NCBI GenBank assembly: GCA_040754315.1
Contig: JBFMCS010000043.1
Span: forward strand, 1 to 64,000
DNA length: 64,000 bases
Direction: 5' to 3'
Source: Bacillota bacterium
Lineage (GTDB): Bacteria; Bacillota; Sulfobacillia; DUSP01; JBFMCS01
Each line of letters begins with the position of its first letter. The stretch's first letter is position 1. Shown here piece after piece: positions 18,152-64,000 of this stretch. The position numbers were made by a program, and so were the translations under genes. Under the pieces are notes generated by a model. It had not been told where the DNA came from, searched no databases, and saw only the letters and a program-made list of their open reading frames with translations.

Positions 18152-18264
18152 ACCACGGAACAGGATTCAGGTGGGATGATGGTCTGGCGGGGTCGGCCAG
18201 GCGCATCGCCGAGAAGCGCGGTTTGGCAAGCGCGCCCTTGATTTTACCGGAGGGTTTGATATGA
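18148..18264 (+). CDS. Small ORF coupled to the helicase
   Basis: A 38-residue ORF whose ATG overlaps the helicase stop (ATGA) and whose stop overlaps the SIR2 start (ATGA). The N-terminal part, FRWDDGLAGSARRIAEKRGL, looks like the beginning of a larger protein, so it may be what is left of the gene that once followed the helicase before SIR2-HerA joined. It could also simply carry ribosomes through to the SIR2 gene. No family recognised. Confidence 0.35.
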   Translation: MNHGTGFRWDDGLAGSARRIAEKRGLASAPLILPEGLI

Positions 18265-21339: not shown

Positions 21340-21545
21340 ACAGAACGCCGGTAACCTCATCCAGCGTCGCGTCGATTGGCTACGACTCCAATACGATGAC
21401 TCTCGAAGTCGAATTCACAAGCGGGTCAATCTACCAATACTACGACGTGCCGGAGAACGTGTACCAGGAATTCATGCGTGCCAGTTCCAAGGGCCAGTTT
21501 CTGCATGCGAACATCAGGCATAACTACCGGTACACGAAGCTATAA
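21336..21545 (+). CDS. KTSC-domain small protein
   Basis: A 69-residue KTSC domain protein: SSSVASIGYDSNTMTLEVEF followed by a tyrosine-rich IYQYYDVPENVY and a basic C terminus. KTSC domains occur fused to lysyl-tRNA synthetase-like and other proteins and as small stand-alone genes near mobile and defence loci; they are proposed to bind nucleic acid. ATG overlaps the HerA stop and has AGGAGGT upstream, so it belongs to the same transcript as SIR2-HerA. Whether it takes part in defence is unknown. Confidence 0.75.
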   Translation: MNRTPVTSSSVASIGYDSNTMTLEVEFTSGSIYQYYDVPENVYQEFMRASSKGQFLHANIRHNYRYTKL

Positions 21546-21597
21546 ACATAACAAACGGTGGAGCTGGAGTTAGTCGCACGGGGGGAACCGAAGTCCG

Positions 21598-21822
21598 ATG
21601 ATGATCAATCTGCCCCACCTGATCGAGGTCGCGCTTCCCATCCGGGAGATCTCGGCGGAGAGCGTGCGGGACAAGTCGCTGCGGCACGGGCATATCTCGA
21701 CGCTGCATCTTTGGTGGGCGCGACGGTCGCTGGTGGCAGCGTAGGCGGTGGTCTTCACCTCGCTCGTGCCCGATTCGGATGACCCGCGCTACCCTGCGGC
21801 TCCTTCCGCGAGGCCGTGGAAG
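21598..21822 (+). pseudogene. 5' fragment of a second DUF1156 methylase
   Basis: The reading from ATG 21598 ([20 protein letters not shown], then [14 protein letters not shown]) is nearly identical to residues 10-52 of the intact methylase at 24265, and similarity continues past an in-frame TAG (21742-21744) and a 2-base insertion to about the codon for Val-Glu-Arg. Similarity then stops and helicase sequence begins. This is a truncated paralogous copy, not an alternative start of the intact gene. Confidence 0.85.
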
Positions 21823-21966
21823 GGCTGAAGGAGTTGGAACTGATGATGAAGCTGACCGCCAACCCCCCCGATCCACTGACGGAGGCCGTGATCATTTTCG
21901 TGCCTGTGACGACCATTGAGAGCAAGGCACAAGCGCCCTCGCCTGCCTGGTGCGACGCGGCGTGCG

Positions 21967-21998
21967 GCCTGTCTGCGTACGGGGACGCACAGGCAGGC
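21967..21998. repeat. REP-like hairpin inside helicase remnant
   Basis: GCCTG-TC-TGCGT (21967-21978) pairs with ACGCACAGGC (21985-21994), two five-base stems around a two-base bulge and a six-base loop. It interrupts the homology to the helicase, so it was inserted after the copy was lost. It resembles repetitive extragenic palindromes. No second copy of the exact sequence was seen in this window. Confidence 0.45.
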
Positions 21999-22167
21999 GC
22001 ATAGCAGCAAGGGCGTTAGATGTGCCGCGACGACGAGATGGAACCCGCGTGGTGATGCGGTACGAGCGCAGCTGCAGTTGGACGCCATCGTGTTGGCCAG
22101 TTCCGAGGTGGACAAGCTCCGCCAGCTCGGCGAGCGGGCGTGGCTCTACGTCGTCACCTTCTGCATG

Positions 22168-22240
22168 AGTGGTGGGGTAGGCTTCCAGCCTGCCAAACCA
22201 GAAGCAGACAAGATGTTTGCCTGCCAACTTCATATTCTCC
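22168..22240. repeat. Double-hairpin REP-like insertion in helicase remnant
   Basis: A block with no counterpart in the intact helicase lies between the WLYVV and PEVLYRQ segments. It contains two short hairpins, AGGCTTCCAGCCT (22179-22191) and GCAGACA-AGA-TGTTTGC (22204-22220), the architecture of REP elements spread by RAYT-type transposases. No RAYT gene is present in the window. Confidence 0.45.
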
Positions 22241-22346
22241 AGGCTCAACCCGGAGGTGCTGTATCGGCAGTGTAGATCCAGTACCTCGTCGAAGAGGACG
22301 ACTAGGCGCAGCGGGGGGAGAACGTAACAGTAGGAGGGAAGCTCTG

Positions 22347-24272
22347 ATGAAGATCAAATCCGTTCGCATCCGGAACTTCCGCTCTATAAAAGAGCAGACC
22401 GTGGAGCTTGACGACTACACATGCTTCGTTGGACCCAATGGGTCCGGAAAGTCTAACGTACTTCATGCTCTTAATGTCTTCTTTGGAGAATCCGAAATAC
22501 CCGGCCTCGACACGCGTGCACTTGGAGAAGAAGATTTCCATAGCAGAAACACAGGCGAGCCTGTCGAGATAACCATCATGTTTTCTGACCTCTTGCCGGA
22601 AGCCAAAGATCGACTCGCGCATTATGTTCGCCACGACGAACTGGTAGTGTCAGTGGAGGCGCGACTTGACGCGACCACCGGCAAGGCCGAAGTCAAACAG
22701 TATGGACGCCGGATGGTAATCAAGGACTTTGCGCCGTTCTTTGAAGCTGAAAAGGAAGGAAAGAAAGTCGCAGAGCTAAAAGAGATATACAACAGTGTGC
22801 GGGAGACATACACTGATCTGCCGGCTCCGGGCACCAAGGATGCCATGATCCAAGCTCTTCGCTCTTATGAGGAGGAACACCCGGAGAAATGTGAGGAGCT
22901 TCCGAGCGGTGATCAGTTCTATGGAGTGGCGAAAGGAAAAAACCTTCTCGAGCAATATATTCAGTGGGTGTACGTACCAGCAGTCAAAGACGCATCAAGC
23001 GAACAGGCTGAAGCCAAGGCAACTGCTCTTGGGAGACTTTTGGCACGTACTGTTCGCTCCAAGGTCAACTTCAAGGACTCAATCGATGCTATTCGCAAAG
23101 AAATGCAGGAGAAGTACGGAAAGCTTCTCGCCGATAGCCAGGAACAGTTGGCGGAAATATCTCAAGCACTGAGAGATCGTCTCATGGAGTGGGCCCACCA
23201 GGATGCGACGCTTCGGTTGAAATGGCACCAGGATCCTGAAAAGGCGGTGCGCGTGGATGAGCCGTTCGCGCAGGCGATCCTTGGTGAGGCGGGCTTCGAA
23301 GGGGAGCTCACGCGTTTCGGTCATGGCCTTCAACGTTCCTTTCTCCTGGCGCTATTGCAGGAGCTTTCTGGTAGCGACGGTGATGTGGGGCCACGCCTGA
23401 TTCTTGCGTGTGAGGAGCCGGAACTGTACCAACATCCTCCACAGGCACGGCACCTATACAACGTGCTGCTAAGGCTGAGCGAACAGAACTCTCAGGTACT
23501 TGTTGCCACCCACAGCCCGTATTTCGTATCCGGTGAAGGATTCGAGAGCGTGAGGATGGTTCGTAAGTCTAACGGGGCTTCGTCGATCACAAGGACTACG
23601 CATGAAGAAGTGTCAAGGCGAATCGCGGAGGCTCGAGGGGAAACACCGATTAAGGCCAGTGGTCAGTTGGCTAAGATTCATCAGGCCCTTCAGCCGGAAC
23701 TTAGCGAGATGTTCTTCGCTTCCAGAATTGTGTTCGTGGAGGGGCTTGAGGACGTCGCCTATCTGACAACATACCTACACCTTCTGGGTTTGTGGGACGA
23801 GTACAGGAGGCTCGGCTGCCATCTGATTCCTACCGATGGGAAGAGCCAAATACTTCAACCCTTGGCGGTTGCAAGATGTCTCCGGATACCGGCCTTTGTC
23901 GTCTTTGATTCAGACGGAGATAAGCCAGATAAGGGCGGCAGCAAAGAGAAGCACCGGAAGGACAACACCGCAATTCTCCACTTATGTAAGGTTGCCAATC
24001 CGGAACCATTTCCACCTGACACATTCTGGGGGGAGACCGTGGTCATGTGGCCCTCTGACATGGGGCAAGTGGTTGAGCAGGAGATTGGCAAAGAGGACTG
24101 GAATCAATATCAATCTGAGGCCGACACGAAGTACGGACACGCTGGGAATTTGCGGAAGAACATGCTTCACATTGCATCGAGCCTCCACGTGGCATGGGAA
24201 GCTGGGAAGGAATCTCCGTCTCTCCAGAAGCTGTGCAAAAAAATCATGGAGTTTGCAAAGTACAATGGATAA
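22347..24272 (+). CDS. OLD-family ATPase with TOPRIM nuclease domain
   Basis: A 641-residue SMC/ABC-like ATPase of the OLD class. N-terminal IRNFRSIKEQTVELDDYTCF leads into Walker A GPNGSGKS at residues 29-36; the signature/Walker B half follows as LILACEEPELYQHPPQARHL, and the switch HSPYF near 390. The C-terminal TOPRIM domain starts IVFVEGLEDVAYL (catalytic Glu) with VVFDSDGDK (Asp-x-Asp). OLD proteins are ATP-powered nucleases; relatives act alone or with a partner (for example Gabija GajA) against phage. No GajB-like helicase follows. ATG with TAGGAGGGA 7 bases upstream; stop overlaps the methylase start. Confidence 0.87.
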   Translation: MKIKSVRIRNFRSIKEQTVELDDYTCFVGPNGSGKSNVLHALNVFFGESEIPGLDTRALGEEDFHSRNTGEPVEITIMFSDLLPEAKDRLAHYVRHDELVVSVEARLDATTGKAEVKQYGRRMVIKDFAPFFEAEKEGKKVAELKEIYNSVRETYTDLPAPGTKDAMIQALRSYEEEHPEKCEELPSGDQFYGVAKGKNLLEQYIQWVYVPAVKDASSEQAEAKATALGRLLARTVRSKVNFKDSIDAIRKEMQEKYGKLLADSQEQLAEISQALRDRLMEWAHQDATLRLKWHQDPEKAVRVDEPFAQAILGEAGFEGELTRFGHGLQRSFLLALLQELSGSDGDVGPRLILACEEPELYQHPPQARHLYNVLLRLSEQNSQVLVATHSPYFVSGEGFESVRMVRKSNGASSITRTTHEEVSRRIAEARGETPIKASGQLAKIHQALQPELSEMFFASRIVFVEGLEDVAYLTTYLHLLGLWDEYRRLGCHLIPTDGKSQILQPLAVARCLRIPAFVVFDSDGDKPDKGGSKEKHRKDNTAILHLCKVANPEPFPPDTFWGETVVMWPSDMGQVVEQEIGKEDWNQYQSEADTKYGHAGNLRKNMLHIASSLHVAWEAGKESPSLQKLCKKIMEFAKYNG

Positions 24273-27237
24273 TAGCAGCCCTAACGGTAATTGTCCCCGC
24301 CTGATCGAAGTTGCGCTGCCTATCCGGGAGATCTCGGCGGAGAGTGTAAGGGACAAGTCGCTGCGGCACGGGCATATCTCGACGTTGCACCTCTGGTGGG
24401 CGCGGCGGCCGCTGGCGGCCGCACGGGCGGTGGTCTTCGCTTCGCTGGTGCCCGATCCTGATGATCCGCGCTGCCCTGCGGAGTTCCGCGCTCTGGTGGA
24501 GCGTCTTTTGAAAACGCAAGTGCCGGCAGCCTTGAAATATTACAGCCGCGGGCGTAACAGGTTCCGGGACGAAGACCCTTACCGCCCCTATGAGGGTATG
24601 CCGGATACGTTACGGAACCGGCTCCTGATGTTCATCGCCAAGTGGTCGCCGGAGATGCTGGCTTTTGAGGCCGGCAAGCGGGAGAAACCTCCGGCACCCA
24701 AGGAACTTCTGGACGACCGCTCGCTGGTTAAATGGGAGACTTCCGATCCGGATAACGGCCAGGGGCGGGAGATTTTAGGCATTGCCCGTGAGTTGGTCAA
24801 GGTCGCTCACGGGGGCAGAGTGCCGGTGGTGCTCGATCTTTTCGCCGGCGGCGGCGCGATTCCGCTGGAAGCCGGCCGGCTCGGCTGCCAGGCCATCGCC
24901 AATGACTACAACCCGGTGGCCTACCTCATCCTGCGGGCATCTTGTGAGCTTCCGCAAAAGTACGGCAGGCCAGGGATAAGAAAAGTCAAGGAAGAATACC
25001 TGGGAATCGTCACTGAAACTGAACGCCAGGTTCCAAATGTCCTGCTCCACGACGTCGAGAAGTGGGCCAGGTGGATCCTGGAACGGGCGCGTGGGAAGAT
25101 TGGGCATCTCTATCCGCCCGGGAAGGATGGTCGGCCGGTCGTCGCTTACCTGTGGGCACGGACGGCGCCCTGCGCGAACCCCTCCTGCCGGGGGGAGATC
25201 CCGCTTTTGCGCAGCCTTCTGGTTTGTAACAAGCCGGGCAAGAAAGTGGCGCTGACGATGGAAACGAACAAGGCGGAGAAGGCAGTTCGATTTGGGATTG
25301 CAGAGGGCACGGCTATCAAGGCCACCGACGGCACCATGCAGAATCGTGGGAACACCCTGTGCCCGTACTGCGAACAGGTGACCCCCGTGAGCGACCTGCG
25401 AGTTGCTGGACTCGGGGACCGCATGGGCCAGCAGATGGTCGCCGTCATCACGGAAGACAAGGGCGGCAAGCAATACCGGCCGGTCGAGGACTCCGACCTC
25501 GTGGCCTTTCGAAGTGCAGCCGACATCAAGGTCGAACCGCCCCGGGAGTTGATCCTCGCGGAGGTTTCCGGTTCTGATGAGCACGTGTCCCATCGCGGCC
25601 AGTTCACGACATACATGTACGGTATGAAGACCTGGGGCTCGCTCTTCAACCCGCGCCAGCTCGTGGCTATGCAGACCTTCGTCGCCTGCCTTCACGAGGC
25701 GCTGGAGCGCATACGCGAGGAGATTGAGGACGAGGAGTACCGTAAGGCGGTAGGGGTTTATCTGGGGCTATGGTTAAGCCGGATTGCCCAGCGCGGTTCA
25801 AACGTCGGCTTGTGGCACACGACGCGTGAAACACTTGAACACCCATTTGGACGCCAGGCGATTCCCATGACCTGGGATTACCCGGAAGCGAATCCATTCT
25901 CTGAGTCTACGGGCAGTGCGGAGGGCGGTATTGACTGGATGCTCCGCGTGATCTCCCGGGAATCTTCTCTGCCTGGGCAGACAGGTGGCAGTCTACCTGC
26001 GCAAGTTATACGAGGCGACGCGGCGGACCTTTCGGTGGCGAAGAACTCCACGGATGTCATTGTAACTGATCCTCCTTATTTTGACGCCATTGCTTACGCT
26101 GATCTCTCCGATTACTTTTATGTCTGGCTGAAACGGGGACTTTCGGCGGTGGTTCCTGAAGCCCTGCTAACGCCGCTGACGCCGAAAGGGGACGAGGCCA
26201 CCGCGCTAAAACACCGGCATGAAGGTGATAGCGAGAAGGCCGATGAGCACTTCCAAGCAAAGCTGGCGATGGCGCTTGCCCAAGCACATAGTGCCCTGAA
26301 AGCCGGTGGTCTTGTCTCAATCATGTTCGCCCATCAGTCCACCAAGGCCTGGACCGCATTGGTGCGGGCCATCTTTGACGCGGGGCTGACCATCAATGCC
26401 ACCTGGCCGATTGATTCGGAGTTGACTACCGCGTTAAAAGCCAGCATGTCTGCCCTGGCCTCTTCCGTAACCGTTGCCTGCCGACCCCGCCTAGTCGGCA
26501 GCGCCGCTTCCTTCAAGGAGGTGCGCCGGGAGATTGAGCAGGTCGTCCGGGAGTCCGTCAAACGCTTCTGGTCCTACGGCTTCCGGGGCGCCGACCTCAT
26601 TGTCGCCTGTTACGGTCCGGCCGTGGGCGTTTTCGGCCAATACGAGCGGGTGGAGAAGGCGGACGGCACGCCGGTCGGGGTCCCGGAGCTTCTTGACCTT
26701 GCCCGCCGGGTGGCGCGGGACGCTATCGCCGGTGAGTTCCGCGGGGACAACCTCTCTACCCTGTATTACGTTTGGGCCAACCTGTACGGCACCGCCGAGC
26801 AGGCCTGGGACGATGCCCGGCTGGTGGTGCAGATCGGCGGCGAGGCGGACAGCGCCATGGAGGTCGCCCGCGGGCACGGCATCTTTGTGGTGGACGGCTC
26901 GAAATGCCGCCTGGCGCTGCTCGTTGACCGGGAGCAGCGGCGCGGCTTGGGTGAAGGTCAAAGCCCGCCGCTGATTGACGCTCTGCACCGTAGCATGCTA
27001 CTGTGGCAGGGAGAGCAGCGCCATGAATTGGTGACGTACCTTGCGGAGCGCGATCTGCTGGAAGATGAGCCTTTCTGGAAGCTGGCCCAGGCGCTTTTTG
27101 AGGTGCTGCCGCGGGAGGCGGCGGACTGGAAACTCGTCAGTGCCCTTCTTGGTGAACGTCAGACGCTGCGCGCCGAGGGCAAGAGCGCGACATATCAAGA
27201 CGTCCAGCAAAAGCTCGAATTTGAGGGAGGGCGATGA
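24265..27237 (+). CDS. DUF1156 adenine-specific DNA methylase with zinc ribbon
   Basis: A 990-residue predicted N6-adenine DNA methylase (COG1743 type). The N-terminal DUF1156 domain contains [18 protein letters not shown] and [19 protein letters not shown]. The SAM-binding motif I VLDLFAGGGAIPLEAGRLG is near residue 188, Cys pairs for a zinc ribbon (CANPSC, then CPYC) lie between, and the catalytic motif TDPPYFDAI is near residue 602. ATG at 24265 overlaps the OLD stop by 8 bases and gives the standard N terminus; the longer reading upstream is antisense-free but inside the OLD gene. It is expected to modify host DNA so that the helicase/DUF499 machinery spares it. Confidence 0.9.
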   Translation: MDNSSPNGNCPRLIEVALPIREISAESVRDKSLRHGHISTLHLWWARRPLAAARAVVFASLVPDPDDPRCPAEFRALVERLLKTQVPAALKYYSRGRNRFRDEDPYRPYEGMPDTLRNRLLMFIAKWSPEMLAFEAGKREKPPAPKELLDDRSLVKWETSDPDNGQGREILGIARELVKVAHGGRVPVVLDLFAGGGAIPLEAGRLGCQAIANDYNPVAYLILRASCELPQKYGRPGIRKVKEEYLGIVTETERQVPNVLLHDVEKWARWILERARGKIGHLYPPGKDGRPVVAYLWARTAPCANPSCRGEIPLLRSLLVCNKPGKKVALTMETNKAEKAVRFGIAEGTAIKATDGTMQNRGNTLCPYCEQVTPVSDLRVAGLGDRMGQQMVAVITEDKGGKQYRPVEDSDLVAFRSAADIKVEPPRELILAEVSGSDEHVSHRGQFTTYMYGMKTWGSLFNPRQLVAMQTFVACLHEALERIREEIEDEEYRKAVGVYLGLWLSRIAQRGSNVGLWHTTRETLEHPFGRQAIPMTWDYPEANPFSESTGSAEGGIDWMLRVISRESSLPGQTGGSLPAQVIRGDAADLSVAKNSTDVIVTDPPYFDAIAYADLSDYFYVWLKRGLSAVVPEALLTPLTPKGDEATALKHRHEGDSEKADEHFQAKLAMALAQAHSALKAGGLVSIMFAHQSTKAWTALVRAIFDAGLTINATWPIDSELTTALKASMSALASSVTVACRPRLVGSAASFKEVRREIEQVVRESVKRFWSYGFRGADLIVACYGPAVGVFGQYERVEKADGTPVGVPELLDLARRVARDAIAGEFRGDNLSTLYYVWANLYGTAEQAWDDARLVVQIGGEADSAMEVARGHGIFVVDGSKCRLALLVDREQRRGLGEGQSPPLIDALHRSMLLWQGEQRHELVTYLAERDLLEDEPFWKLAQALFEVLPREAADWKLVSALLGERQTLRAEGKSATYQDVQQKLEFEGGR

Positions 27238-27347
27238 TGATGGTGGCGGAGTTGCTGAAAGAGAAGCGCGAGGAGATCCTGCGAATCGCGCAGAAGCATG
27301 GAGCGCACAATGTAACAAAGATCCCCGACAGGATCTCCCGCCGGTGA
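27234..27347 (+). pseudogene. Truncated MNT-type nucleotidyltransferase fragment
   Basis: A 37-residue ORF starting at ATGATGATG that overlaps the methylase stop. VAELLKEKREEILRIAQKHG is the N-terminal helix of small MntA-like nucleotidyltransferases (antitoxins of HEPN-MNT modules), where the next residues should form the GS-x-R-G catalytic loop. Here the text departs after AHNV and stops. No HEPN partner follows. It looks like a remnant of a toxin-antitoxin module trapped in the operon. Confidence 0.5.
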
Positions 27348-27445
27348 AGCAGGCTATTGCAGAGTTACTTCCGCCGCTCGATCAGCTTGAAAGTGAGTTG
27401 GCTGGTGACGACGAACCTGACGATGCGGGAGGGAAACTTGCATGA
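27342..27445 (+). CDS. Short ORF coupled to DUF499 gene
   Basis: A GTG-initiated reading of 33 residues (VKQAIAELLPPLDQLESELA, then an acidic tail) whose TGA overlaps the ATG of the DUF499 gene. It may be the C-terminal leftover of a gene that stood between methylase and ATPase, kept because it feeds ribosomes to the ATPase start. Real function unproven. Confidence 0.3.
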
Positions 27446-30303
27446 GTACCGAACTGAAACCCTGGTACGCGGTTGCCATACCCCACGAAGACATTCGTGA
27501 AGGACGGCTGGCCGAAGCGGTCTTCGCAGCGAACCTGTGGGCTGTCGTTCAGGGCACGGCGCCGGAGGTTTATCTCGACCCGGAGGAGTTCTTTCGCAAG
27601 ACCTACCTCACCACCGGCCTCTCCACGGTGCTGAATCGGGTGGCGGGAGCGCTCTGCGGCGACGGCGAAACCGGGGACCGGATCATCAGTCTGCAAACCG
27701 CCTTTGGCGGCGGCAAGACGCACACGCTCGTCGCCCTCTGGCATCTGGCCAACTACGCGGACCGGCTGAATGCTTCCTCCCAAGGGGAGGGCCTGAGGCA
27801 GGTCACCGGTGGGCGGCTCCCCGAAAAGGTAAAGGGCGTGGCGGTCTTTACGAATCAGACCTGCGATGCCACACAGGGGCGCAGAACGCCGGATGGCGTG
27901 CATCTCAGGACTCTTTGGGGCGAGCTGGCCTTCCAGTTGGGCGGGAAGCATCTTTACGAGCGGGTGCGGGCAAACGACGAGAGCCAGCGCGTCCCGCAGG
28001 GGATTTTCACGGAGGTATTGCGGGCTGCTTCGCCCTGCCTGGTTCTGTTGGACGAGCTGGCCGACTACTGCGTAGGTGCGGCGGCGGTGCCGGTCGGCGA
28101 TACGAACCTGGCGGATCAGACCATCTCTTTCATCCAGCAACTCACCGAGGCGGTGCAACAGGTGCCGGATGCGGTTGTGGTGGCCACCCTCCCGGCGAGC
28201 AAATATGAGGTGGCCCAGAGCGAAAAGGGACAGGAAGCCTTCGTCACTTTGGAGAAGCGTTTCCAGCGCCTCGGTGCCGATGTGAAGCCGGTTGCCGACG
28301 AGGAGATTTACGAAGTGGTCCGCGCCAGGCTGTTTGAGTCGATCGCCCCGGAGAACGAGCCCGATTATCCCAAGAAGGTGGCGCAGGTTTACCAAGGGAT
28401 GTATGCGGCGCACTCCGGGGAGGTTCCCTCCGAGGCGGCGAAGAATGTGTACCGCGAGTATATAGAGCGAGCCTATCCGTTCCATCCGCTGCTTATCGAC
28501 GCCCTCTATACCCGCTGGGGCAGCCACCCCGACTTTCAACGGACCCGCGGCGTGCTACGTCTGCTGGCGAGCATTGTCGGTGACCTGTGGAAGCATCGCC
28601 AAGGAAACACCCAGACGCAGCATCTTATCCAGCCCTGCCATGTCCGTTGGTCGGTGGACGCTTTGCAGGCGGCGCTCACCCGCTTCTGGGGCCCGGCTTA
28701 TCAATCCGTGGCCGCCGCCGACGTAACCGGAGAGCGATCCAATGCCGGCATATTTGACGAGGAGCGCGGCGGCGATTATCGCCGTGAGGCCATTGCACAG
28801 GGACTGGCTTCCGCTATTCTTCTTGGTTCCTTTGGTGGTCAGGGGGGACGCAGCGGATTCGGTTCAAAGGACTTGAAGCTGGCCTGTTCCCGGTACGGTC
28901 TCAACTGGAACTATACCGACGGGGCACTTCTTGAACTAGAAAACCGCTGCTTTTATCTACACACCACTGCGGCCGGAAGTATGGGCAAGCGTTACTGGTT
29001 CGGTACCAAGCCAACCCTCAACAAGCTGGTCGTTCAGTACCGCCAACAGAACGCAAAGGAGAACTTTGAGGAAGAAATCCTGGAAGATCTCCGGGCCGAA
29101 TCGCAAAAGAGCGCTCTCGCCGGCGCGACATGGAGGGTAATCATCAAACCGGCGGAGGATTTACCGGAACAGAAGTCGCTGACCCTATTGGTTTTGCCGC
29201 CTTCATTGGCCTGGGACGAAAACGGAGGCGCCAAAGAAGCGGTTCGGGAACGTATCAAGTCCATCAGTGCCCGCTGCGGGGGGAAGGACCGGATCTACCG
29301 CAACACGCTTCTGTTCCTGGCAGGTACCACCCGTGGACTGGCGAAGCTCAGGCAGGCTCACCGTGAAAGCGCTGCTTTGGAGGGTGTGCGCGCGGACTAC
29401 TGGGAGCAGCTTGACGAGGAACAGCGGGAAGACCTGAAGACGCGCCTTGAGGCGGCCCGGCGGGTTGCCCTGGAGACTCTGGGTCCTGCCTACACTGTGG
29501 CGCTACGAGTACGTGCCGAGGCTGCCGCCGGACAGGGGCAGGAGGTGGAGGTGTGTACTCTGTCGGATGCGCGGCGGTGTTTTCAGGAACATCTCGGGTA
29601 CCTGTGGACAGTACTCGTAGAGGACGAGGAGTGGATTCTCCGGCGTGTCGGGTTGGTGACACTTGACAATACGGGCTTGATTCCCAAGAAAGACACACTG
29701 CGCCTGAAGGATGCGGTCGAGGCGTTTCTGCGCTTTACGGACAAACCCCTGATTGCCGCCAAGGAAGCGGTCACCGCCGGGCTGGCCCAGGCCTGCTTGG
29801 ATGGGCTTGTGGGCATCGGTCGAGGCGGAAGCCCATCGGCGCTTCAGGTCCGTTATTGCAGACAGGCGGTATCTTTGGACCCCAGCGAGGATGGACTCTG
29901 GATCATCCCGGCATTCACCCCTGAGTCTGGTGGGAATGCCGGTGATTCAGGAACTGCTACCACAAGCGTTGGTGCTGGGGGTCTGCCACCAGGCTCTCAA
30001 GAGACGGGCGGCTCCGCCAAGGACATGACCCCGGAAACCGGGACGGTGATCCCGAAAGAGGCGGGAGAAGACATAGTGCGGGGGTTTGTCGTCCGGGGCG
30101 CCGTGCCGGTGGAGAATTGGAGTGAGTTATTTCGTTGCTTTGTCGTGCCTGCGGCGCGGATGAATCTCAAGAAGCTTCAGCTTGGAGTTCAATTCGAGAT
30201 GCTACTTCCCGATGGCACAACAATGAGCAAGAACGACCCGGCATTGAAGGCGATGAAAGAAGCAGCCCAACAACTCGGGCTGATCTTGGAGATTGAGGAG
30301 TAG
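27442..30303 (+). CDS. DUF499 AAA+ ATPase of the defence system
   Basis: A 953-residue ATPase of the COG1483/DUF499 family. The Walker A motif TAFGGGKTHTL is near residues 86-96, and CLVLLDELADYCV near 197 is the Walker B. An acidic, helical second half and a variable Gly/Ser/Thr-rich linker (about residues 830-870) precede the last conserved 80 residues. Families DUF499 and DUF1156 are frequent neighbours in defence islands and are thought to form one restriction-modification-like system. ATG overlaps the preceding short ORF. It ends the defence operon. Confidence 0.87.
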   Translation: MSTELKPWYAVAIPHEDIREGRLAEAVFAANLWAVVQGTAPEVYLDPEEFFRKTYLTTGLSTVLNRVAGALCGDGETGDRIISLQTAFGGGKTHTLVALWHLANYADRLNASSQGEGLRQVTGGRLPEKVKGVAVFTNQTCDATQGRRTPDGVHLRTLWGELAFQLGGKHLYERVRANDESQRVPQGIFTEVLRAASPCLVLLDELADYCVGAAAVPVGDTNLADQTISFIQQLTEAVQQVPDAVVVATLPASKYEVAQSEKGQEAFVTLEKRFQRLGADVKPVADEEIYEVVRARLFESIAPENEPDYPKKVAQVYQGMYAAHSGEVPSEAAKNVYREYIERAYPFHPLLIDALYTRWGSHPDFQRTRGVLRLLASIVGDLWKHRQGNTQTQHLIQPCHVRWSVDALQAALTRFWGPAYQSVAAADVTGERSNAGIFDEERGGDYRREAIAQGLASAILLGSFGGQGGRSGFGSKDLKLACSRYGLNWNYTDGALLELENRCFYLHTTAAGSMGKRYWFGTKPTLNKLVVQYRQQNAKENFEEEILEDLRAESQKSALAGATWRVIIKPAEDLPEQKSLTLLVLPPSLAWDENGGAKEAVRERIKSISARCGGKDRIYRNTLLFLAGTTRGLAKLRQAHRESAALEGVRADYWEQLDEEQREDLKTRLEAARRVALETLGPAYTVALRVRAEAAAGQGQEVEVCTLSDARRCFQEHLGYLWTVLVEDEEWILRRVGLVTLDNTGLIPKKDTLRLKDAVEAFLRFTDKPLIAAKEAVTAGLAQACLDGLVGIGRGGSPSALQVRYCRQAVSLDPSEDGLWIIPAFTPESGGNAGDSGTATTSVGAGGLPPGSQETGGSAKDMTPETGTVIPKEAGEDIVRGFVVRGAVPVENWSELFRCFVVPAARMNLKKLQLGVQFEMLLPDGTTMSKNDPALKAMKEAAQQLGLILEIEE

Positions 30304-57344: not shown

Positions 57345-58835
57345 TCAGGCGCCAGGGTGTCCCCGGAGGATCTCCGCTTCGTAGTCCTCTATGATGGCCC
57401 GGATGGTCTGGGCCGCCCCCGCTACCATGGGTATGGGCTTGTGAGTCTTCAGGATGTGCTGGGCTTCCTCGTAGGCCCGTTCCGCTGCATCGCGGGAGCC
57501 CTCCGCGCTCCAGGCATTCCTGGTCCTGCGGTCAAACAACCTTGGCTGGGACTGTTTCCGCATGTGCCTGAAGGTATGCTCGCTGGTCATGAACTCCCCG
57601 GCTGGACCCACCTGGTGGATAAGGTCCAGGGCCAGGGTCTCGTCAGAGAAGTCAATGCCCCCTGTGACCTTCCGTATGTAGCGGATCATCTCCGCATCCA
57701 GGATCAGCTTGGCGAAGTCAATGGTGAGTCCCATTTCCAGGGCTCCCACCCCGTAGACGATGTTGGCCCCAGCCAGGGCCCCCAGGACCGCATTGAGGGT
57801 GTACTCGTATCCGGACTGCGCGTCAGGGATCTTGCTGTCGGAAACGCCCCCGCCGACCCAGCTGGGGAGCCGGTAGTACTGGGCCAGGTTGATGGCCCCC
57901 GCGCTGATCATGCCGTGTTCAGGTGATCCCACTGCGCCCACCATGAGTCTCAGGTCCATGATGGTGCTCATGGAGCAGTAGGTACAGGCTGTGCCCTTGC
58001 GGGCAAGCTGCGCCAGGACAAGGGCCGAGAGGGTTTCGGCGTTATGGGTCACCAGGGTGCCGGCCAGGGTCACCGTGGACGTGGCGCCCGCCAGCGCCAT
58101 TGGGATCACGGCAACACCCGCCCCTCCCCTGGCCGTCTCTATGATGGCCTCGCAGCACTCCTCCACCAGCATCAACGGGCTTGTGGGACACACGAACACT
58201 GTGAGGTTGGGGCGCTCCCGGAATACCTCTGCGCCGCCCACGCTGGCCGCCGCCATCTCCACCATCTTCCTGCAGTTGGCTCCGTTGCCCGCCCCGGTGA
58301 AGACATGCTTTGAGGTATTATTCAGGAGGGCGTCCAGGTTATGCAGGGGTTGGGTTGCCGGGAGGCAATCTGACGAACAGAGGGGCCGTTCCATCACACT
58401 GATCTCATCGAGGTAGTCACACACCCTGGTGACCTGGGCCACGTCTTCCTTGACGGACCTCCGGGCCTGCCGGGTGTGGATGTCGATCACCTTCACGCAC
58501 TCGCCGAAGGTGCTGAACCCCACACGGTTGGGTTCGGCCACGAAGTCGTCCTCCGGCTCCCTTCCATAGTAGACCGTGGTGGAAGGGGTCCATTGTATGC
58601 AGTCCTCAACCACGTAGGGAGGTATCTTCACGATGGTCTGGCCGGGCCTGCGCTCGACCTTTGCGCCGGCGCCATGGAACATTTCCACGGCCTCTTCGCT
58701 GTCCACCTTGATGCCAGTATTCCTGAACACCTCAAGGGTAGCGTAGTGAAGGGAGTCCAGCTGGTCCCGGGTGAGGGCTAGGAGCCCGAAGCCGGAGGCA
58801 AGAGTCACTCCCGTCCGGGCGCTTCTTCCTGTCAT
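57345..58835 (-). CDS. MttB-family methyltransferase with lysine at the pyrrolysine position
   Basis: A 496-residue trimethylamine/betaine-type corrinoid methyltransferase (MttB, COG5598). It is as long as Methanosarcina MttB (about 495 residues) and open throughout, with no internal UAG. In archaeal MttB pyrrolysine is residue 334; here residue 335, in the context VSDSKIPDAQ, is lysine encoded by AAG at 57833-57831. The similar length and position suggest that this is the equivalent site. The change from UAG to AAG is one base. Pyl-less relatives such as MtgB demethylate glycine betaine or other quaternary amines, so that is a likely role. It diverges from the pyl operon and has GGGAGTGGAGTAG before its ATG. 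The corrinoid protein partner is not in the window. Confidence 0.85.
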   Translation of the reverse strand: MTGRSARTGVTLASGFGLLALTRDQLDSLHYATLEVFRNTGIKVDSEEAVEMFHGAGAKVERRPGQTIVKIPPYVVEDCIQWTPSTTVYYGREPEDDFVAEPNRVGFSTFGECVKVIDIHTRQARRSVKEDVAQVTRVCDYLDEISVMERPLCSSDCLPATQPLHNLDALLNNTSKHVFTGAGNGANCRKMVEMAAASVGGAEVFRERPNLTVFVCPTSPLMLVEECCEAIIETARGGAGVAVIPMALAGATSTVTLAGTLVTHNAETLSALVLAQLARKGTACTYCSMSTIMDLRLMVGAVGSPEHGMISAGAINLAQYYRLPSWVGGGVSDSKIPDAQSGYEYTLNAVLGALAGANIVYGVGALEMGLTIDFAKLILDAEMIRYIRKVTGGIDFSDETLALDLIHQVGPAGEFMTSEHTFRHMRKQSQPRLFDRRTRNAWSAEGSRDAAERAYEEAQHILKTHKPIPMVAGAAQTIRAIIEDYEAEILRGHPGA

Positions 58836-59116
58836 CTACTCCACTCCCATCCATTTCATGGAGCACGAGAACCCATAGAGGCAGGTATTCGCCCGCGAGC
58901 GTGGGACTTCCTTTCCGAGCGCCACGAAGGTAAGCCTGGGTTCTTCAAAGGAGGGTTACAGAGGCTAGACTCGAGCATGTGGGCAGCGACGGTGGGAGAG
59001 AATCACCAGACAGCCAGGTGCCACCATGTGGCCTCAAAAGGGGTTTGGCCAAGAGGTGTCGAAGACTATCATGCCCCGGGCGTCTTAGGTGCTCTAGCGC
59101 CCCGGAGCGGGCAAGC

Positions 59117-59188
59117 GGGGGGTAGATCGGCATGATCGCGCAGACCCTAAATCTGCGCAGCCGGGGGTGGCTCCCGGACTCCCCGCCA
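59117..59188 (+). tRNA. pylT: tRNA-Pyl, anticodon CUA
   Basis: A 72-nt tRNA with all traits of bacterial tRNA-Pyl. The acceptor stem is GGGGGGT/ACTCCCC with G73 and an encoded CCA. One base separates acceptor and D stem. The D arm is GATC-GGCAT-GATC with a five-base loop lacking the GG pair. The anticodon stem CGCAGA/TCTGCG has six pairs, the variable loop is three bases, and the T loop lacks TpsiC. The loop CCCTAAA puts CTA at 59147-59149, so it reads UAG. The base before the anticodon is C rather than U (U33 is nearly universal and is U in the Desulfitobacterium tRNA-Pyl that I recall). It lies 39 bases before pylSc and probably leads the operon. Confidence 0.95.
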
Positions 59189-59227
59189 GTACCATTCCCC
59201 CGGTTTCCCGGGAGGGAGGGACACAAG

Positions 59228-60064
59228 GTGGGTGTTTCCTGGACCCCCGTGCAACGCCAGCGTCTGGCTGAGCTCGGGGCGGGACAGGCCATCTTTGACC
59301 AGGAATTCCCCGATGTGGGCCACCGGAACCGTACCTTCCAAGAGGCCGAGCGGGGCCTGGTGGAGGAGGCCAGGCGCAGGCTGGAGAGCCTCCGCCAGGT
59401 CCGCCGGCGCCCTGTGCTCTGCCAGCTGGAGGAGGACCTCGTCAAAGCCCTAATAGACAGGGGCTTCACACAGGTGGTCACACCCATACTCCTCCCCAGG
59501 GTCTCCTTGGAGAAGATGACAATAAGCGAGGACCATCCCCTCTTTAGCCAGGTATTCTGGGTGGACCCCTCCAGGTGTCTCCGGCCCATGCTGGCCCCGA
59601 ACCTGTACAAGATGATGGTAAGCCTGGCCCGGGTCTGGCCCATGCCCATTAGGATCTTTGAGGTGGGCCCCTGTTTCCGCAAGGAAACCAGCGGGGCGCA
59701 GCACCTGAACGAGTTCACCATGCTAAACCTCGTGGAGATGGGCCTGCCCCAGGAGGAGAGGGCCCCCAGGCTGAGGGAACTGGCGTCCCTGGTCATGGAG
59801 GCCTCAGGCATCAGCGACTACCAGCTGCACAAGAAGGAGTCAGAGGTATATGGGACCACGCTGGATGTGGTCTCAGGTTTGGAGCTAGGTTCGGGCGCCA
59901 TGGGCCCGCACCCCCTGGACGAGGCATGGGGGGTGTTCGATACGTGGGTGGGAATAGGCTTTGGCCTGGAACGCCTGGCCATGGTGCGCGAAGGCTACCA
60001 GGGCGTTCACAGGGTGGGACGCAGCCTGGCGTACCTTGACGGGGTACGCCTCAACATAGGATAA
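59228..60064 (+). CDS. pylSc: Pyrrolysyl-tRNA synthetase catalytic domain
   Basis: PylSc, 278 residues, the class II catalytic part of the split bacterial pyrrolysyl-tRNA synthetase. Motif 2 is FRKETSGAQHLNEFTML; the pyrrolysine pocket residues that are N346, C348 and Y384 in M. mazei appear as N167, V169 and Y208; the C-terminal GFGLERLAM is motif 3. The GTG start has GGAGGGAGGG upstream and matches the N terminus of the D. hafniense protein; the longer reading from 59132 begins inside the tRNA and is wrong. It charges tRNA-Pyl with pyrrolysine together with PylSn encoded at 63227. Confidence 0.95.
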   Translation: MGVSWTPVQRQRLAELGAGQAIFDQEFPDVGHRNRTFQEAERGLVEEARRRLESLRQVRRRPVLCQLEEDLVKALIDRGFTQVVTPILLPRVSLEKMTISEDHPLFSQVFWVDPSRCLRPMLAPNLYKMMVSLARVWPMPIRIFEVGPCFRKETSGAQHLNEFTMLNLVEMGLPQEERAPRLRELASLVMEASGISDYQLHKKESEVYGTTLDVVSGLELGSGAMGPHPLDEAWGVFDTWVGIGFGLERLAMVREGYQGVHRVGRSLAYLDGVRLNIG

Positions 60065-60156
60065 GGTAACTCACGGGCAACACAATGAATGCCAGGTGGC
60101 TTGGGGCCATGGCAGGCGCTCCCAAGCACCGGGACCATTAAGAAGGGTCGATAGTC

Positions 60157-61230
60157 ATGCCCCGTTTCCTCACGGACATACTGGACAGATCCCTCAGGGA
60201 AGAGCCCCTGCCTCGGGAGGATATCCGTTTCCTGGTGAGCCTGGAGGGCCCAGACCTCCAGGATGTGTTTGCCTCGGCACGCACCCTCAGGGAGCGCTAC
60301 TTCGGCCGGGGCGTGTTCCTCTATGGCTTTGTCTACTTCTCCACCTGGTGCCGGAACAGGTGTGCCTTCTGCCTGTACCGCACTGGCAATGACCGGCACA
60401 CCCCATACAGGAAGAGTCCTGGCGAGGTCTTGGAGGTCTCCCGGAACCTGGCCGAATCGGGGGTTCACCTGATAGACTTGACCATGGGTGAGGACGCGCT
60501 CTACCACGAGCAGGGCTTCGAGCCCCTGGTGGGCCTGGTCCGCTCTGTCAGGCATGAGGTTGGGCTCCCAGTCATGATATCCCCGGGGGTGGTTCCCAGG
60601 GATGTGCTCTCCTCCCTGGCAGGCGCAGGCGCGGACTGGTACGCATGCTACCAGGAGACCCACAACAGGGACCTCTTCGCCCGCTTGCGGGTCGGACAGG
60701 ACTATTCACAGAGGATGAATACGAAGACCTGGGCCCGAGACCTTGGGCTCCTCACGGAAGAGGGGGTGCTTACAGGCGTTGGCGAGACCCAGGACGACCT
60801 GGCCACTACCATCGAGGCTATGAGGGACGTCCGGTGCCAGCAGGTGCGGGTCATGGGGTTCGTCAACCAGGCTGGCACACCCATGGAACGTTTCTCCTGG
60901 CCCAACCGGGAACTGGCCATGATAGCCGCATTGAGGCTCTCCTTCCCGTCCAGGCTGATCCCGGCATCCCTGGATGTAGACGGCCTGGCTGGCCTGGAGC
61001 TGCGGCTCCAGGCAGGCGCCAACGTCATCACATCCCTGATACCGCCCCATTCCGGGCTTGCCGGCGTGTCCCAGCATTCGCTGGACATTGATGAGGGCAA
61101 CAGGAGCGTCAAGGGAGTCCTCCCGGTTCTCGAAAGGCTTGGCCTCGAGGCATCCACTGCGGAGGAATATGAGGCCTGGGTGGCCAGGGAGAGGCGTCTT
61201 GCCATGGCAGGGGAAGGGGTCAGGGCATGA
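60157..61230 (+). CDS. pylB: 3-methylornithine synthase PylB (radical SAM)
   Basis: PylB, 357 residues, rearranges L-lysine to (3R)-3-methyl-D-ornithine, the first step to pyrrolysine. The radical-SAM cluster Cys are C65, C69 and C72 in STWCRNRCAFCLYRTGN, near the start of the TIM barrel, and the C-terminal half matches biotin-synthase-like relatives. ATG start preceded by AGAAGGG. It overlaps pylC by four bases. All PylB-C-D steps use lysine as the only amino acid. Confidence 0.95.
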   Translation: MPRFLTDILDRSLREEPLPREDIRFLVSLEGPDLQDVFASARTLRERYFGRGVFLYGFVYFSTWCRNRCAFCLYRTGNDRHTPYRKSPGEVLEVSRNLAESGVHLIDLTMGEDALYHEQGFEPLVGLVRSVRHEVGLPVMISPGVVPRDVLSSLAGAGADWYACYQETHNRDLFARLRVGQDYSQRMNTKTWARDLGLLTEEGVLTGVGETQDDLATTIEAMRDVRCQQVRVMGFVNQAGTPMERFSWPNRELAMIAALRLSFPSRLIPASLDVDGLAGLELRLQAGANVITSLIPPHSGLAGVSQHSLDIDEGNRSVKGVLPVLERLGLEASTAEEYEAWVARERRLAMAGEGVRA

Positions 61231-62393
61231 GGCTTTTAGTGGCGGGGGGCAGGCTCCAGGGCACCGAGGCTGCCTACCTGGCACGGGAGGCCGGGTGGGA
61301 GGTGCTGGTGGCAGATGTGGACAGCGAAGCCCCGGCTGCTGGTCTGTGTGATGAATTCCTGCTGGTAGACATTACCGATGAATGGGCGCTGAAGAGGGCG
61401 TTGCGTGGCGTTGACCTGGTAGTTCCCGCCCTGGAAGACCTGGAGGTCCTGCCTGTTCTGGAGAGGGTGTCTCACGGTGAGGGCGTTCCCATCGCTTATG
61501 ACCCCAGGGCCTACCGGATCTCCAGCTGCAAGATCAAGTCAGACAGGCTCTTTGCCGAGCAGGGGGTCCCCGCCCCCCGTCCTGGCGCTAGAACGTTTCC
61601 GGTCATCGCCAAGCCGTCGGGCTCCAGCGGCAGTGACGGTGTGAGGCGGTTTGGCGATGAGGGCGAATTCCAGCGTTTCAAGGTGAACATGGGGAAGGGG
61701 TTATCCGGGTGGGTCATCCAGGAGTACCTCGAGGGACCCTCCTACTCCTTGGAAGTGGTAGGTACAGGCCTTCATTTCCGCACCCTCCAAGTCACCCAGC
61801 TGGAGATGGACCCGCTCTACGACTGCAAGCGGGTCCTGGCCCCTGCGGACCTGGAGACGCCCCTGGTGGAGGCCCTCAGGGCAGACACCGTGAGACTGGC
61901 CAGGGCAATGGGGCTGGTGGGGGTCATGGACATAGAGGTGATACTCAACTCCGGGCGCCTGCAGGCCCTGGAGATCGACGCCAGGCTTCCCAGCCAGACA
62001 CCCACGGCGGTGTACAAGTCCAGCGATCAGAACCTCTTGGAATGGCTGAAGGAGGTGTTTGTCGACGGGAGGCTTCCTGAAGCCGGTATCAGGGTCAAGA
62101 GGGCTGTCATTTACGAGCACGTCTGGGCTCATGACGGGGTCCTGGAGGTGACAGGGGAGCACATCATGGGTACTGGGGGGCACCTCAGCCACCGCCGGGG
62201 GTTCTTCGGGGCTTGTGAGGCCCTGACCAACTTCCGGGGACCATGGTTGCCGTGGGTGGCTACGCTCATCAACACCGGCTCAACCATGGAAGAGGCCTGG
62301 GCCGCCCGGGACTCGGCGGTGAGGGGCATCATGGCCCATTGCGGCCTGGGTGTCCTACTGGATGAGGGGCCGCATGAAGAGGGAGGAACCTGA
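61227..62393 (+). CDS. pylC: Pyrrolysine biosynthesis ligase PylC
   Basis: PylC, 388 residues, an ATP-grasp ligase that joins 3-methyl-D-ornithine to the epsilon-amino group of a second lysine. Visible parts: the N-terminal LLVAGGRLQGTEAAYLARE nucleotide-binding loop, the ATP-grasp core with FPVIAKPSGSSGSDGV, and EIDARLPSQTPTAVYKSSDQ near residue 250. ATG overlaps the pylB stop (ATGA). Confidence 0.94.
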   Translation: MRLLVAGGRLQGTEAAYLAREAGWEVLVADVDSEAPAAGLCDEFLLVDITDEWALKRALRGVDLVVPALEDLEVLPVLERVSHGEGVPIAYDPRAYRISSCKIKSDRLFAEQGVPAPRPGARTFPVIAKPSGSSGSDGVRRFGDEGEFQRFKVNMGKGLSGWVIQEYLEGPSYSLEVVGTGLHFRTLQVTQLEMDPLYDCKRVLAPADLETPLVEALRADTVRLARAMGLVGVMDIEVILNSGRLQALEIDARLPSQTPTAVYKSSDQNLLEWLKEVFVDGRLPEAGIRVKRAVIYEHVWAHDGVLEVTGEHIMGTGGHLSHRRGFFGACEALTNFRGPWLPWVATLINTGSTMEEAWAARDSAVRGIMAHCGLGVLLDEGPHEEGGT

Positions 62394-62395
62394 GC

Positions 62396-63208
62396 TTGAC
62401 GAGACTCACCGTGGATCACATACATGGGATGGCTGAAGGGCTGAAAGCCTATGACCTTAGCCTCCGGGAGAGCACAGGGCTGAACCTCCTGGCCGTTGCG
62501 TGCAGGGCTGCGGATACCAGCCCGGGGGAAGCCATGCGAAGACTGGCTGCCGTGACGGTGGCAGTGGTACCCGTGACCGCAGGCCAGGGAGTCATAGATG
62601 GATTTGCAGAGTCGGTCTCGTCCATACTGGAGCACCTCGGTGCCCAGGCCTTCGTGACCGTTGCTACTGATGTCAGCGGTATTGCTCAAGCCGTTGAGGA
62701 GGGGGCCCGCCTGCTGTTCATGGCGGATGACCACCGGTTTGTGGCCTTGGACCTGAGAAACGGGGGCCTGGTCGACAGCACCGAGGCAACCGCCAGGGGG
62801 TTTGTGGCAGCCCTTGAGGCAATGTCCGGAGGCCTGGAGGACAAGAGCGTGCTGGTAATAGGGGTGGGACGGGTTGGAGAGGCAGCTGTCCGGGCCCTCC
62901 TTGACCTGGGGGCCCGCCCCAGGGTTCACGACATAGACGTGGCCCGGGCCATGGAGGTGGCGGGAAGGCACGCGGTACCTGTGGAGGAGGATCTGGAACA
63001 TGCCCTGGGCCGCCACACCAGGGTTATCGACGCGTCCTGGGCCAGCGGGATCATTTGCAGCCACCATGTAACGCCCGAGATGGTGCTGGCTGCCCCAGGG
63101 ATACCCCTGGGCGTTTCCCCTGAGGCCATTCCTCTCCTGGGAAAGAGGCTGGTGCACGATGCGCTGGAGATAGGAGTCGCTACCATGCTGGTCATGAGCC
63201 TCGGGTGA
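62396..63208 (+). CDS. pylD: Pyrrolysine synthase dehydrogenase PylD
   Basis: PylD, 270 residues, oxidises the ligated precursor, which closes to the pyrroline ring of pyrrolysine. The NAD-binding segment VLVIGVGRVGEAAVRALLD is near residue 153, and the N-terminal helical domain precedes it. TTG start with GGGAGG about 10 bases upstream; the gap to pylC is two bases. A large antisense ORF across this gene is a shadow. Confidence 0.94.
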   Translation: MTRLTVDHIHGMAEGLKAYDLSLRESTGLNLLAVACRAADTSPGEAMRRLAAVTVAVVPVTAGQGVIDGFAESVSSILEHLGAQAFVTVATDVSGIAQAVEEGARLLFMADDHRFVALDLRNGGLVDSTEATARGFVAALEAMSGGLEDKSVLVIGVGRVGEAAVRALLDLGARPRVHDIDVARAMEVAGRHAVPVEEDLEHALGRHTRVIDASWASGIICSHHVTPEMVLAAPGIPLGVSPEAIPLLGKRLVHDALEIGVATMLVMSLG

Positions 63209-63226
63209 GCGCTGGGAGGGTTGTCC

Positions 63227-63592
63227 TTGCCTGTACGGAACCCCAAGAAAAGGTACTACCGGAAGGATGTTCCGCTGTTCCGGCTGGTCCAGAAGATCCG
63301 GTTGTGGCCCTCGCGCCGGGGCGTCCTCCACGGAGTAAGGGCGTTTAGGGTCAGGGGGCCCTATGCGGAGGTGGAAACCCACTGCGGCCAGCTTTTCAGG
63401 GTGCGCGACTCTAGAAAGAGCCGGGCGGCGAGGTGGCTGAGGAATAAATGGGTGGTTGAGCAGTGCAAGAGGTGCAGGATACCCCAGTGGAAACTCAGGA
63501 AGTTCGAGGCAACCGTGTTCAGCGAGCACTGGGGGTCCGAACTCAGGGAAGTGGAAACCGGGGAGAACCGGGACGAGCCAGGGGGAACATGA
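63227..63592 (+). CDS. pylSn: Pyrrolysyl-tRNA synthetase N-terminal domain PylSn
   Basis: PylSn, 121 residues, the tRNA-binding half of the split synthetase. Its zinc ligands match the known site of the M. mazei N-terminal domain: H35, C53, C80 and C83 here (H24, C42, C71, C74 there). Basic blocks RDSRKSRAARWLRN and CKRCRIPQWKLRKF contact tRNA-Pyl. TTG at 63227 has GGAGGG 7 bases upstream; the TTG two codons earlier abuts the ribosome binding site and cannot be used. It follows pylD as in Desulfitobacterium. Confidence 0.9.
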   Translation: MPVRNPKKRYYRKDVPLFRLVQKIRLWPSRRGVLHGVRAFRVRGPYAEVETHCGQLFRVRDSRKSRAARWLRNKWVVEQCKRCRIPQWKLRKFEATVFSEHWGSELREVETGENRDEPGGT

Positions 63593-63631
63593 GACGAAAA
63601 AGCAGTCAAGAGGGGAGGCTAGCATTAGGGT

Positions 63632-64000
63632 ATGGAGAAGCTCTACACGAGAATGGGTGACGGCTACCTAGAAGAGACAACGGTGGACCAGATCCGCGCG
63701 GACATCGAGGAAGGCACCCAGGAGGCTGCTCGGAAGGGGAAGACAGCCCCGCTGGGTGCAGACGAGATCCACCGGCTCCTGGAGATTTGCACGATGCCGT
63801 CGAAGTTTGTCAGCGTGTCCCGGGGCAACGAGGTGATCCTCTCCAGCGATGGGGGAATAATGGAGATACCCAGGCTAGGAATCCTGGGGAGACTTACTGG
63901 CATCCAGATATGGGAGAGGATCATCGGGGCTGATACCGCCGAGATGGGGCACCTGGACTACAGCTACAAGGCCGTGAAGTCCGTGGTACACGAGGAACAG
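63632..64000 (+). CDS. mtbB: Dimethylamine methyltransferase MtbB, 5' part
   Basis: The first 123 codons of a corrinoid-dependent dimethylamine methyltransferase, cut by the window edge. It opens with RMGDGYLEETTVDQIRADIE, continues with ICTMPSKFVSVSRGNEVIL, and reaches GADTAEMGHLDYSYKAVK, all typical of MtbB. The ATG has AGAGGGGAGG upstream. In Methanosarcina the UAG/pyrrolysine lies near codon 356, beyond this window, so it is not visible. Its place directly after pylSn makes it the probable user of the cassette. Confidence 0.88.
   Translation, partial: MEKLYTRMGDGYLEETTVDQIRADIEEGTQEAARKGKTAPLGADEIHRLLEICTMPSKFVSVSRGNEVILSSDGGIMEIPRLGILGRLTGIQIWERIIGADTAEMGHLDYSYKAVKSVVHEEQ

Follow-up and report, generated by a model that had tools for sequence, protein, structure and literature searches.

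A pyrrolysine cassette divergent from a pyrrolysine-free MttB gene that branches within the pyrrolysine clade

The stretch of DNA considered here, referred to throughout as the window, comprises positions 1-64000 of an 80,211-base contig (C43) in the genome of an anaerobic Bacillota bacterium (G000). It carries a complete set of genes for the synthesis and insertion of pyrrolysine (Pyl) and, pointing away from the tRNA gene of that set, a gene for an MttB-family methyltransferase in which the residue homologous to pyrrolysine is valine. The two are best explained together as a working pyrrolysine operon and an MttB that formerly contained pyrrolysine, a composite reading that we hold with considerable confidence. 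The locus is a modest variant of a known arrangement, set apart by an MttB without pyrrolysine that branches inside the Pyl clade and by a tRNA-Pyl with cytosine at position 33 (C33). The methyltransferase outweighs the cassette in importance, since evolution from a Pyl-containing to a Pyl-free enzyme has so far been discussed as theoretical (PMC13044021). Statements below about the genome as a whole are based on family searches together with selected stretches.

A pyrrolysine-free MttB within the pyrrolysine clade

The methyltransferase gene (57345-58835, minus strand) encodes a protein with an MTTB domain (PF06253, 300 bits) that scores 626.1 bits against TIGR02369, for which the cut-off is 525; the five pyl proteins below were scored against NCBIfam equivalog models with curated cut-offs. 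Homology to the Pyl-containing MttB of Methanosarcina barkeri (7XCL) extends over the full length (E = 4e-99). The protein differs from its M. barkeri counterpart in having valine (codon GTT) aligned to Pyl334, and its nearest relatives are a Val-bearing protein encoded beside pylSc-D-pylT in another draft genome (L134, 69% identity) and His-bearing proteins from G107 and G148 (both 62-63%). Gly110, Met249, Tyr364 and Gly372, which have been described around the MttB active site (PMC9842639), are kept in this Val/His type of MttB. Seven further positions, the Pyl itself not being counted among them, are invariant in 13 Pyl-MttB rows and changed in all four Val/His rows (S215, G290, S292, A331, H346, M368 and M389). 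Because full-length frames persist through 30-40% divergence, the Val/His genes are not pseudogenes.

The window protein is ~50% identical to Pyl-MttB proteins versus ~28-30% to ordinary non-Pyl MttB proteins, and in three trees built from different sets of rows the four Val/His proteins fall within the Pyl-MttB clade. In one of these, the smallest starred larger set unites them with 14 Pyl rows (support 100/98), and the Pyl-MttB rows do not come out as one group in any of 200 bootstrap trees; with 39 rows, from which long-branch Pyl rows had been removed and to which M. barkeri MttB had been added, the four still share a set of 12 with eight Pyl rows (100/99). Nesting in the Pyl clade is strongly supported, if not beyond doubt, and since the protein branches inside that clade its lack of pyrrolysine appears secondary. 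We regard loss of pyrrolysine in this lineage as probable, and hold back from a firmer statement because the approximately unbiased (AU) test, applied to the hypothesis of a single Pyl group, leads to rejection with 52 rows (p = 0.016) but not with 39 (p = 0.154). This second value weighs against the composite reading, as do several other points: the group submitted to the AU test was picked after a tree had been seen, the 2.92-Mb genome is a draft in 65 contigs with 3.6% contamination, no transporter or corrinoid gene adjoins the window MttB, and C33 in pylT may lower decoding.

It is improbable that the protein never contained pyrrolysine, being instead an early pre-Pyl branch that tree building has drawn into the Pyl clade. 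Such a history would suit the fairly long stem of the Val/His clade (0.43-0.54) and the failure of the AU test to reject it in the reduced set, but it is hard to square with the starred nesting in all three sets of rows, with the AU result for the larger set, with an identity to Pyl rows well above that to ordinary non-Pyl MttB, or with the fact that Val members adjoin pyl genes in two genomes, those of the window and of L134. Descent from a Pyl enzyme is therefore preferred, and a separate, recent event of a similar kind is seen in Candidatus Acetocimmeria pyornia, with which genome G030 is identical in sequence: a near-identical pair of MttB genes (L122/L203) has TAG in one copy and TGG (Trp) in the other at the Pyl codon, and in the TGG copy Met368 has also become Val. 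A Leu-bearing MttB in the complete genome G376 (G376:C1:1788235-1789647; 45% identical) joins the Val/His clade on a long branch in a quick tree, and that genome gave no PylD match.

The Val/His genes form a small, tree-dated set, and the same genomes hold sisters that bear pyrrolysine, which makes the loss of the residue testable at the bench. They also set a trap for annotation, as TIGR02369 ('trimeth_pyl') would label the window MttB a trimethylamine enzyme.

Substrate of the pyrrolysine-free enzyme

The use of quaternary amines by Pyl-free relatives of MttB has been put down to a presumed mimicry of the adduct of pyrrolysine with trimethylamine, and enzymes of the non-Pyl MttB superfamily accept such amines directly (PMC12155760). 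The window protein resembles these enzymes (MtgB, which acts on glycine betaine, MtcB, MtpB, MtyB and MthB) in lacking pyrrolysine and in its probable use of a quaternary amine, but differs from them in its low identity and in branching within the Pyl clade. A further parallel is MtqB, a non-Pyl homolog of MtmB that acts on tetramethylammonium and choline (PMC13044021). Both are Pyl-family folds that operate, or would operate, without pyrrolysine, although MtqB is related to MtmB and the window protein to MttB; loss of pyrrolysine followed by a change of substrate was described as 'theoretically possible' by the authors of the MtqB study (PMC13044021).

In G107 the His-bearing MttB gene is followed by a BCCT transporter gene whose product exceeds the cut-off for CaiT, the carnitine/gamma-butyrobetaine antiporter (726 vs 541 bits). 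Next come a gene for a corrinoid protein and a third frame that resembles, by eye, methyltetrahydrofolate methyltransferase; G107 yielded no PylD over the cut-off and no tRNA-Pyl match in a pattern search. On account of these neighbours, in a genome devoid of detectable pyl genes, the Val/His clade is predicted to consist of quaternary-amine methyltransferases, and by extension a quaternary-amine substrate is marginally favoured for the window protein. The divergent MttB of the window would then be a descendant of a Pyl-MttB in which pyrrolysine gave way to valine and pocket residues changed with it, and would most likely demethylate directly a quaternary amine that replaces the pyrrolysine-trimethylamine adduct. 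For the window protein the substrate is the weakest step in the argument, since it is carried over from G107 and the window gene itself has no such neighbours.

The cassette and its UAG clients

The pyrrolysine genes all lie on the plus strand. A tRNA-Pyl gene with anticodon CTA (pylT, 59117-59188), found by ARAGORN and the sole tRNA gene within the window, is followed by pylSc for the catalytic part of a split pyrrolysyl-tRNA synthetase (59228-60064; TIGR02367, PylS_Cterm, 344.7 bits, cut-off 178), pylB for the radical SAM enzyme methylornithine synthase (60157-61230; TIGR03910, 455.7 bits, cut-off 348), pylC for 3-methylornithine-lysine ligase (61227-62393; TIGR03909, 381.3 bits, cut-off 248), pylD for 3-methylornithyl-lysine dehydrogenase (62396-63208; TIGR03911, 248.4 bits, cut-off 150) and pylSn for the tRNA-binding part of the synthetase (63221-63592; TIGR03912, PylS_Nterm, 116.7 bits, cut-off 51). 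The five protein scores exceed their cut-offs to a degree far beyond chance. An earlier note on this DNA, made from the sequence alone, had proposed a complete and tightly packed cassette in the order pylT-Sc-B-C-D-Sn known from Desulfitobacterium, and each of these elements was recovered: pylB and pylC overlap by 4 bases, and the following gaps are 2 bases (pylC-pylD), 12 bases (pylD-pylSn) and 39 bases (pylSn-mtbB). The start of pylSc is probably the GTG at 59228, because the upstream ATG at 59132 falls within the tRNA gene, GGGAGGGAGG stands before the GTG, and alignment with relatives agrees.

TIGR02367 and TIGR03912 exceed their cut-offs in two separate open reading frames (ORFs), which places the cassette in the split (PylSn plus PylSc) class as a new but unremarkable member. 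The best match of PylSc in the PDB is that of Desulfitobacterium hafniense (2zni/3dsq; E = 2e-104), whose FTMLNL, VYG and WVGxGFGLERL blocks are kept. That the cassette works, as one of the split-synthetase class, is very likely indeed as judged from its genes. If they are expressed, PylB, PylC and PylD would convert lysine to pyrrolysine and PylSc together with PylSn would charge the CUA tRNA.

Downstream, mtbB for dimethylamine methyltransferase begins at 63632 on the same strand and runs beyond the end of the window to C43:65014, the part inside the window being 63632-64000; the match to PF09505 (635 bits) has one TAG within it. An in-frame TAG had been forecast near codon 356 of this gene; a single one is present past position 64000 and at the homologous site, but it is codon 348 (C43:64673-64675, context 'LDGL-O-VGVGDP'). 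The genome holds four MtbB genes with one TAG each, all at the same alignment position, and 26 near-full-length MttB-family genes, two of which have TAG at the Pyl column. The cassette thus has clients in six UAG genes, the four for MtbB and these two for MttB, each with exactly one TAG, and the suggestion that the adjoining mtbB is one of them is upheld both by its own TAG and by the five further UAG methylamine methyltransferase genes elsewhere. Pyrrolysine would be placed at UAG in the downstream MtbB, the three other MtbB proteins and the two MttB proteins, for which di- and trimethylamine would be the methyl donors and corrinoid proteins the acceptors; given these genes, the host should handle both amines with Pyl enzymes.

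The number of MttB-family genes is not extraordinary, larger sets being known from DCMF (82; PMC6778437) and Eubacterium limosum (42; PMC12155760). Nor does one of the MttB genes (L014) encode selenocysteine, as the TGA codons in question sit upstream of its start. A 47-kb island (G000:C52:43465-90290) groups one UAG MtbB gene with nine MttB-family genes that lack pyrrolysine, and on C11 a UAG mtbB is followed by an ORF that resembles a BCCT-type transporter by look only (L186 5498-9127). The genome has one MtmB homolog, which contains no TAG and has Met aligned to the Pyl202 position (G000:C23:70475-71830; L187 12452-13864). It is likely to act on a substrate other than methylamine; an ORF resembling a corrinoid protein lies directly upstream and the cluster includes an NCS1/cytosine-type permease. 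We do not consider this gene new, since Pyl-free MtmB genes have long been on record and for one of them a characterisation is available (PMC13044021).

Avoidance of UAG by the host was considered and rejected. In a sample of 131 ORFs from ~180 kb, which is no census, TAG is the stop codon of 48 (~37%). The share is 34% in the Sporomusa loci used for comparison and 26% in those of Desulfosporosinus, so that heavy use of UAG as a stop is ordinary among bacterial Pyl users. The genome also encodes release factor 1, and since UAG is in addition a common stop, global reassignment is unlikely and decoding in the host would be partial or conditional, perhaps induced.

A tRNA-Pyl with cytosine at position 33

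The anticodon loop of pylT (59145-59151) reads CCCTAAA and so places C33 at 59146. The cloverleaf is otherwise that of a tRNA-Pyl, with a six-pair anticodon stem and a single base separating the acceptor and D stems, and all of the identity elements G1:C72, G73, G10:C25 and A11:U24 (PMC11764691; PMC7609411) are kept. The gene is present in a single copy in the genome. In the 66 tRNA-Pyl genes found by ARAGORN the loop is CTCTAAA, with T33, in 63; that of L141 is TTCTAAA, also with T33, and C33 occurs in the window and in G030. In a phylum-wide sample, 15 of the 16 genomes matching the tRNA pattern have T33 and the only C33 belongs to the window's own genome; the tRNA-Pyl of a genome from the same order (G001) likewise has T33. 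An assembly or sequencing error is conceivable for one base in one copy of a draft genome, yet there is only a small chance of it, given that the surrounding stems are intact and that the same base recurs in the independent assembly of G030, which is of the same class. The G030 tRNA (L204 4791-4862), the sole pattern match in that genome, also has T rather than G73 at the discriminator position; because it may itself be defective, it lends weak support to the idea that C33 is useful.

The earlier note held that its proposal would fall with a nonfunctional tRNA/synthetase pair, and C33 bears on this point, the identity elements being kept while base 33 is unusual. U33 is not strictly essential in amber suppression. 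Mutation of U33 reduces the function of M. barkeri tRNA-Pyl in amber reading (PMC7609411; PMC11467909), and with T33 nearly universal it might be supposed that C33 in the sole pylT makes amber decoding too weak, that the cassette is decaying or impaired, and that enzymes without pyrrolysine, the adjacent MttB among them, are taking the place of Pyl enzymes, much as the G030 tRNA combines C33 with the absence of G73 in a genome that has a Pyl-to-Trp MttB copy. This is highly improbable for the window: none of the five pyl proteins is broken and all exceed their cut-offs, the six UAG genes are still open with TAG at the exact site, G73 and G1:C72 are present in the tRNA, and D. hafniense PylSc and PylSn make no contact to U33 (PMC7609411).

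Weakened amber reading in the host is possible, in that TAG ends more than a third of the sampled ORFs and C33 occurs in the only pylT. A natural C33 tRNA-Pyl could help in understanding how the many genes ending in UAG are protected, and might be of service in code-expansion work. It seems unlikely, though conceivable, that code expansion is here being left in two linked ways, with an MttB lineage that gave up pyrrolysine, remodelled its pocket, turned to quaternary amines and survives even where pyl genes are missing, and with C33 toning down amber reading.

Distribution and age of the cassette

The earlier note had attached importance to the rarity of pyrrolysine outside archaea, a view that no longer holds. 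When GTDB species genomes were scanned with a PylSc alignment, 281 stretches were confirmed to encode a relative of PylSc, and 204 split-type synthetase (PylRS) sequences were counted in a 2024 review (PMC11363022). Taken by itself, the cassette lengthens by one a tally of bacteria already in the hundreds, and rarity is no longer a ground for interest. The loci examined were the best 80 of the 281 stretches, which come from Desulfosporosinus, Sporomusa, Syntrophomonadaceae, Chloroflexota, Aminicenantes, Spirochaetes and others. The exact order pylT-Sc-B-C-D-Sn occurs in 31 of these 80 (tblastn and ARAGORN), Desulfosporosinus and Sporomusa among them. The window shares the parts and the order of these Desulfitobacterium-type cassettes (the split, 'sN' class), but its PylSc is at most ~61-62% identical to any retrieved relative, and it differs further in the C33 of pylT, in having mtbB directly downstream and in the divergent Pyl-free MttB upstream. 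Across 398 genomes in the phylum-wide sample, ~5% have either an MttB of the Pyl clade or a match to the tRNA pattern; among 80 related genomes searched, PylSc exceeded the cut-off in two others only, G001 (of the same taxonomic order) and G030 (of the same class).

The suggestion that the cassette is long established goes beyond what the sequence shows. Its codon style does fit the surroundings, the G+C content at third codon positions (GC3) of the five pyl genes being 0.71-0.81 against 0.76 +/- 0.04 for 34 window ORFs, but vertical descent is neither shown nor excluded: in a PylSc tree a long branch (0.63) leads to the window protein, which joins neither G001 nor G030, so that the tree gave no resolved origin for the cassette.

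Neighbouring features

Between the divergent mttB and pylT genes lie 281 intergenic bases (58836-59116), with one weak sigma-70-like site (59045-59072); with 0.8 such sites expected and one found, this is by itself no evidence. Just 3' of mtbB on C43, a ParE/Phd-type toxin-antitoxin pair lies on the opposite strand (L003 9262-9868), beyond which are genes for a carbon monoxide dehydrogenase catalytic subunit (TIGR01702, 742 bits) and an NAD(P)/FAD oxidoreductase. Further upstream in the window, a run of large ORFs (14573-30303) for SNF2-like helicase, SIR2-like, HerA-like ATPase, OLD-like ATPase and DNA methylase-like proteins has, as judged by eye alone, the appearance of a defence island.

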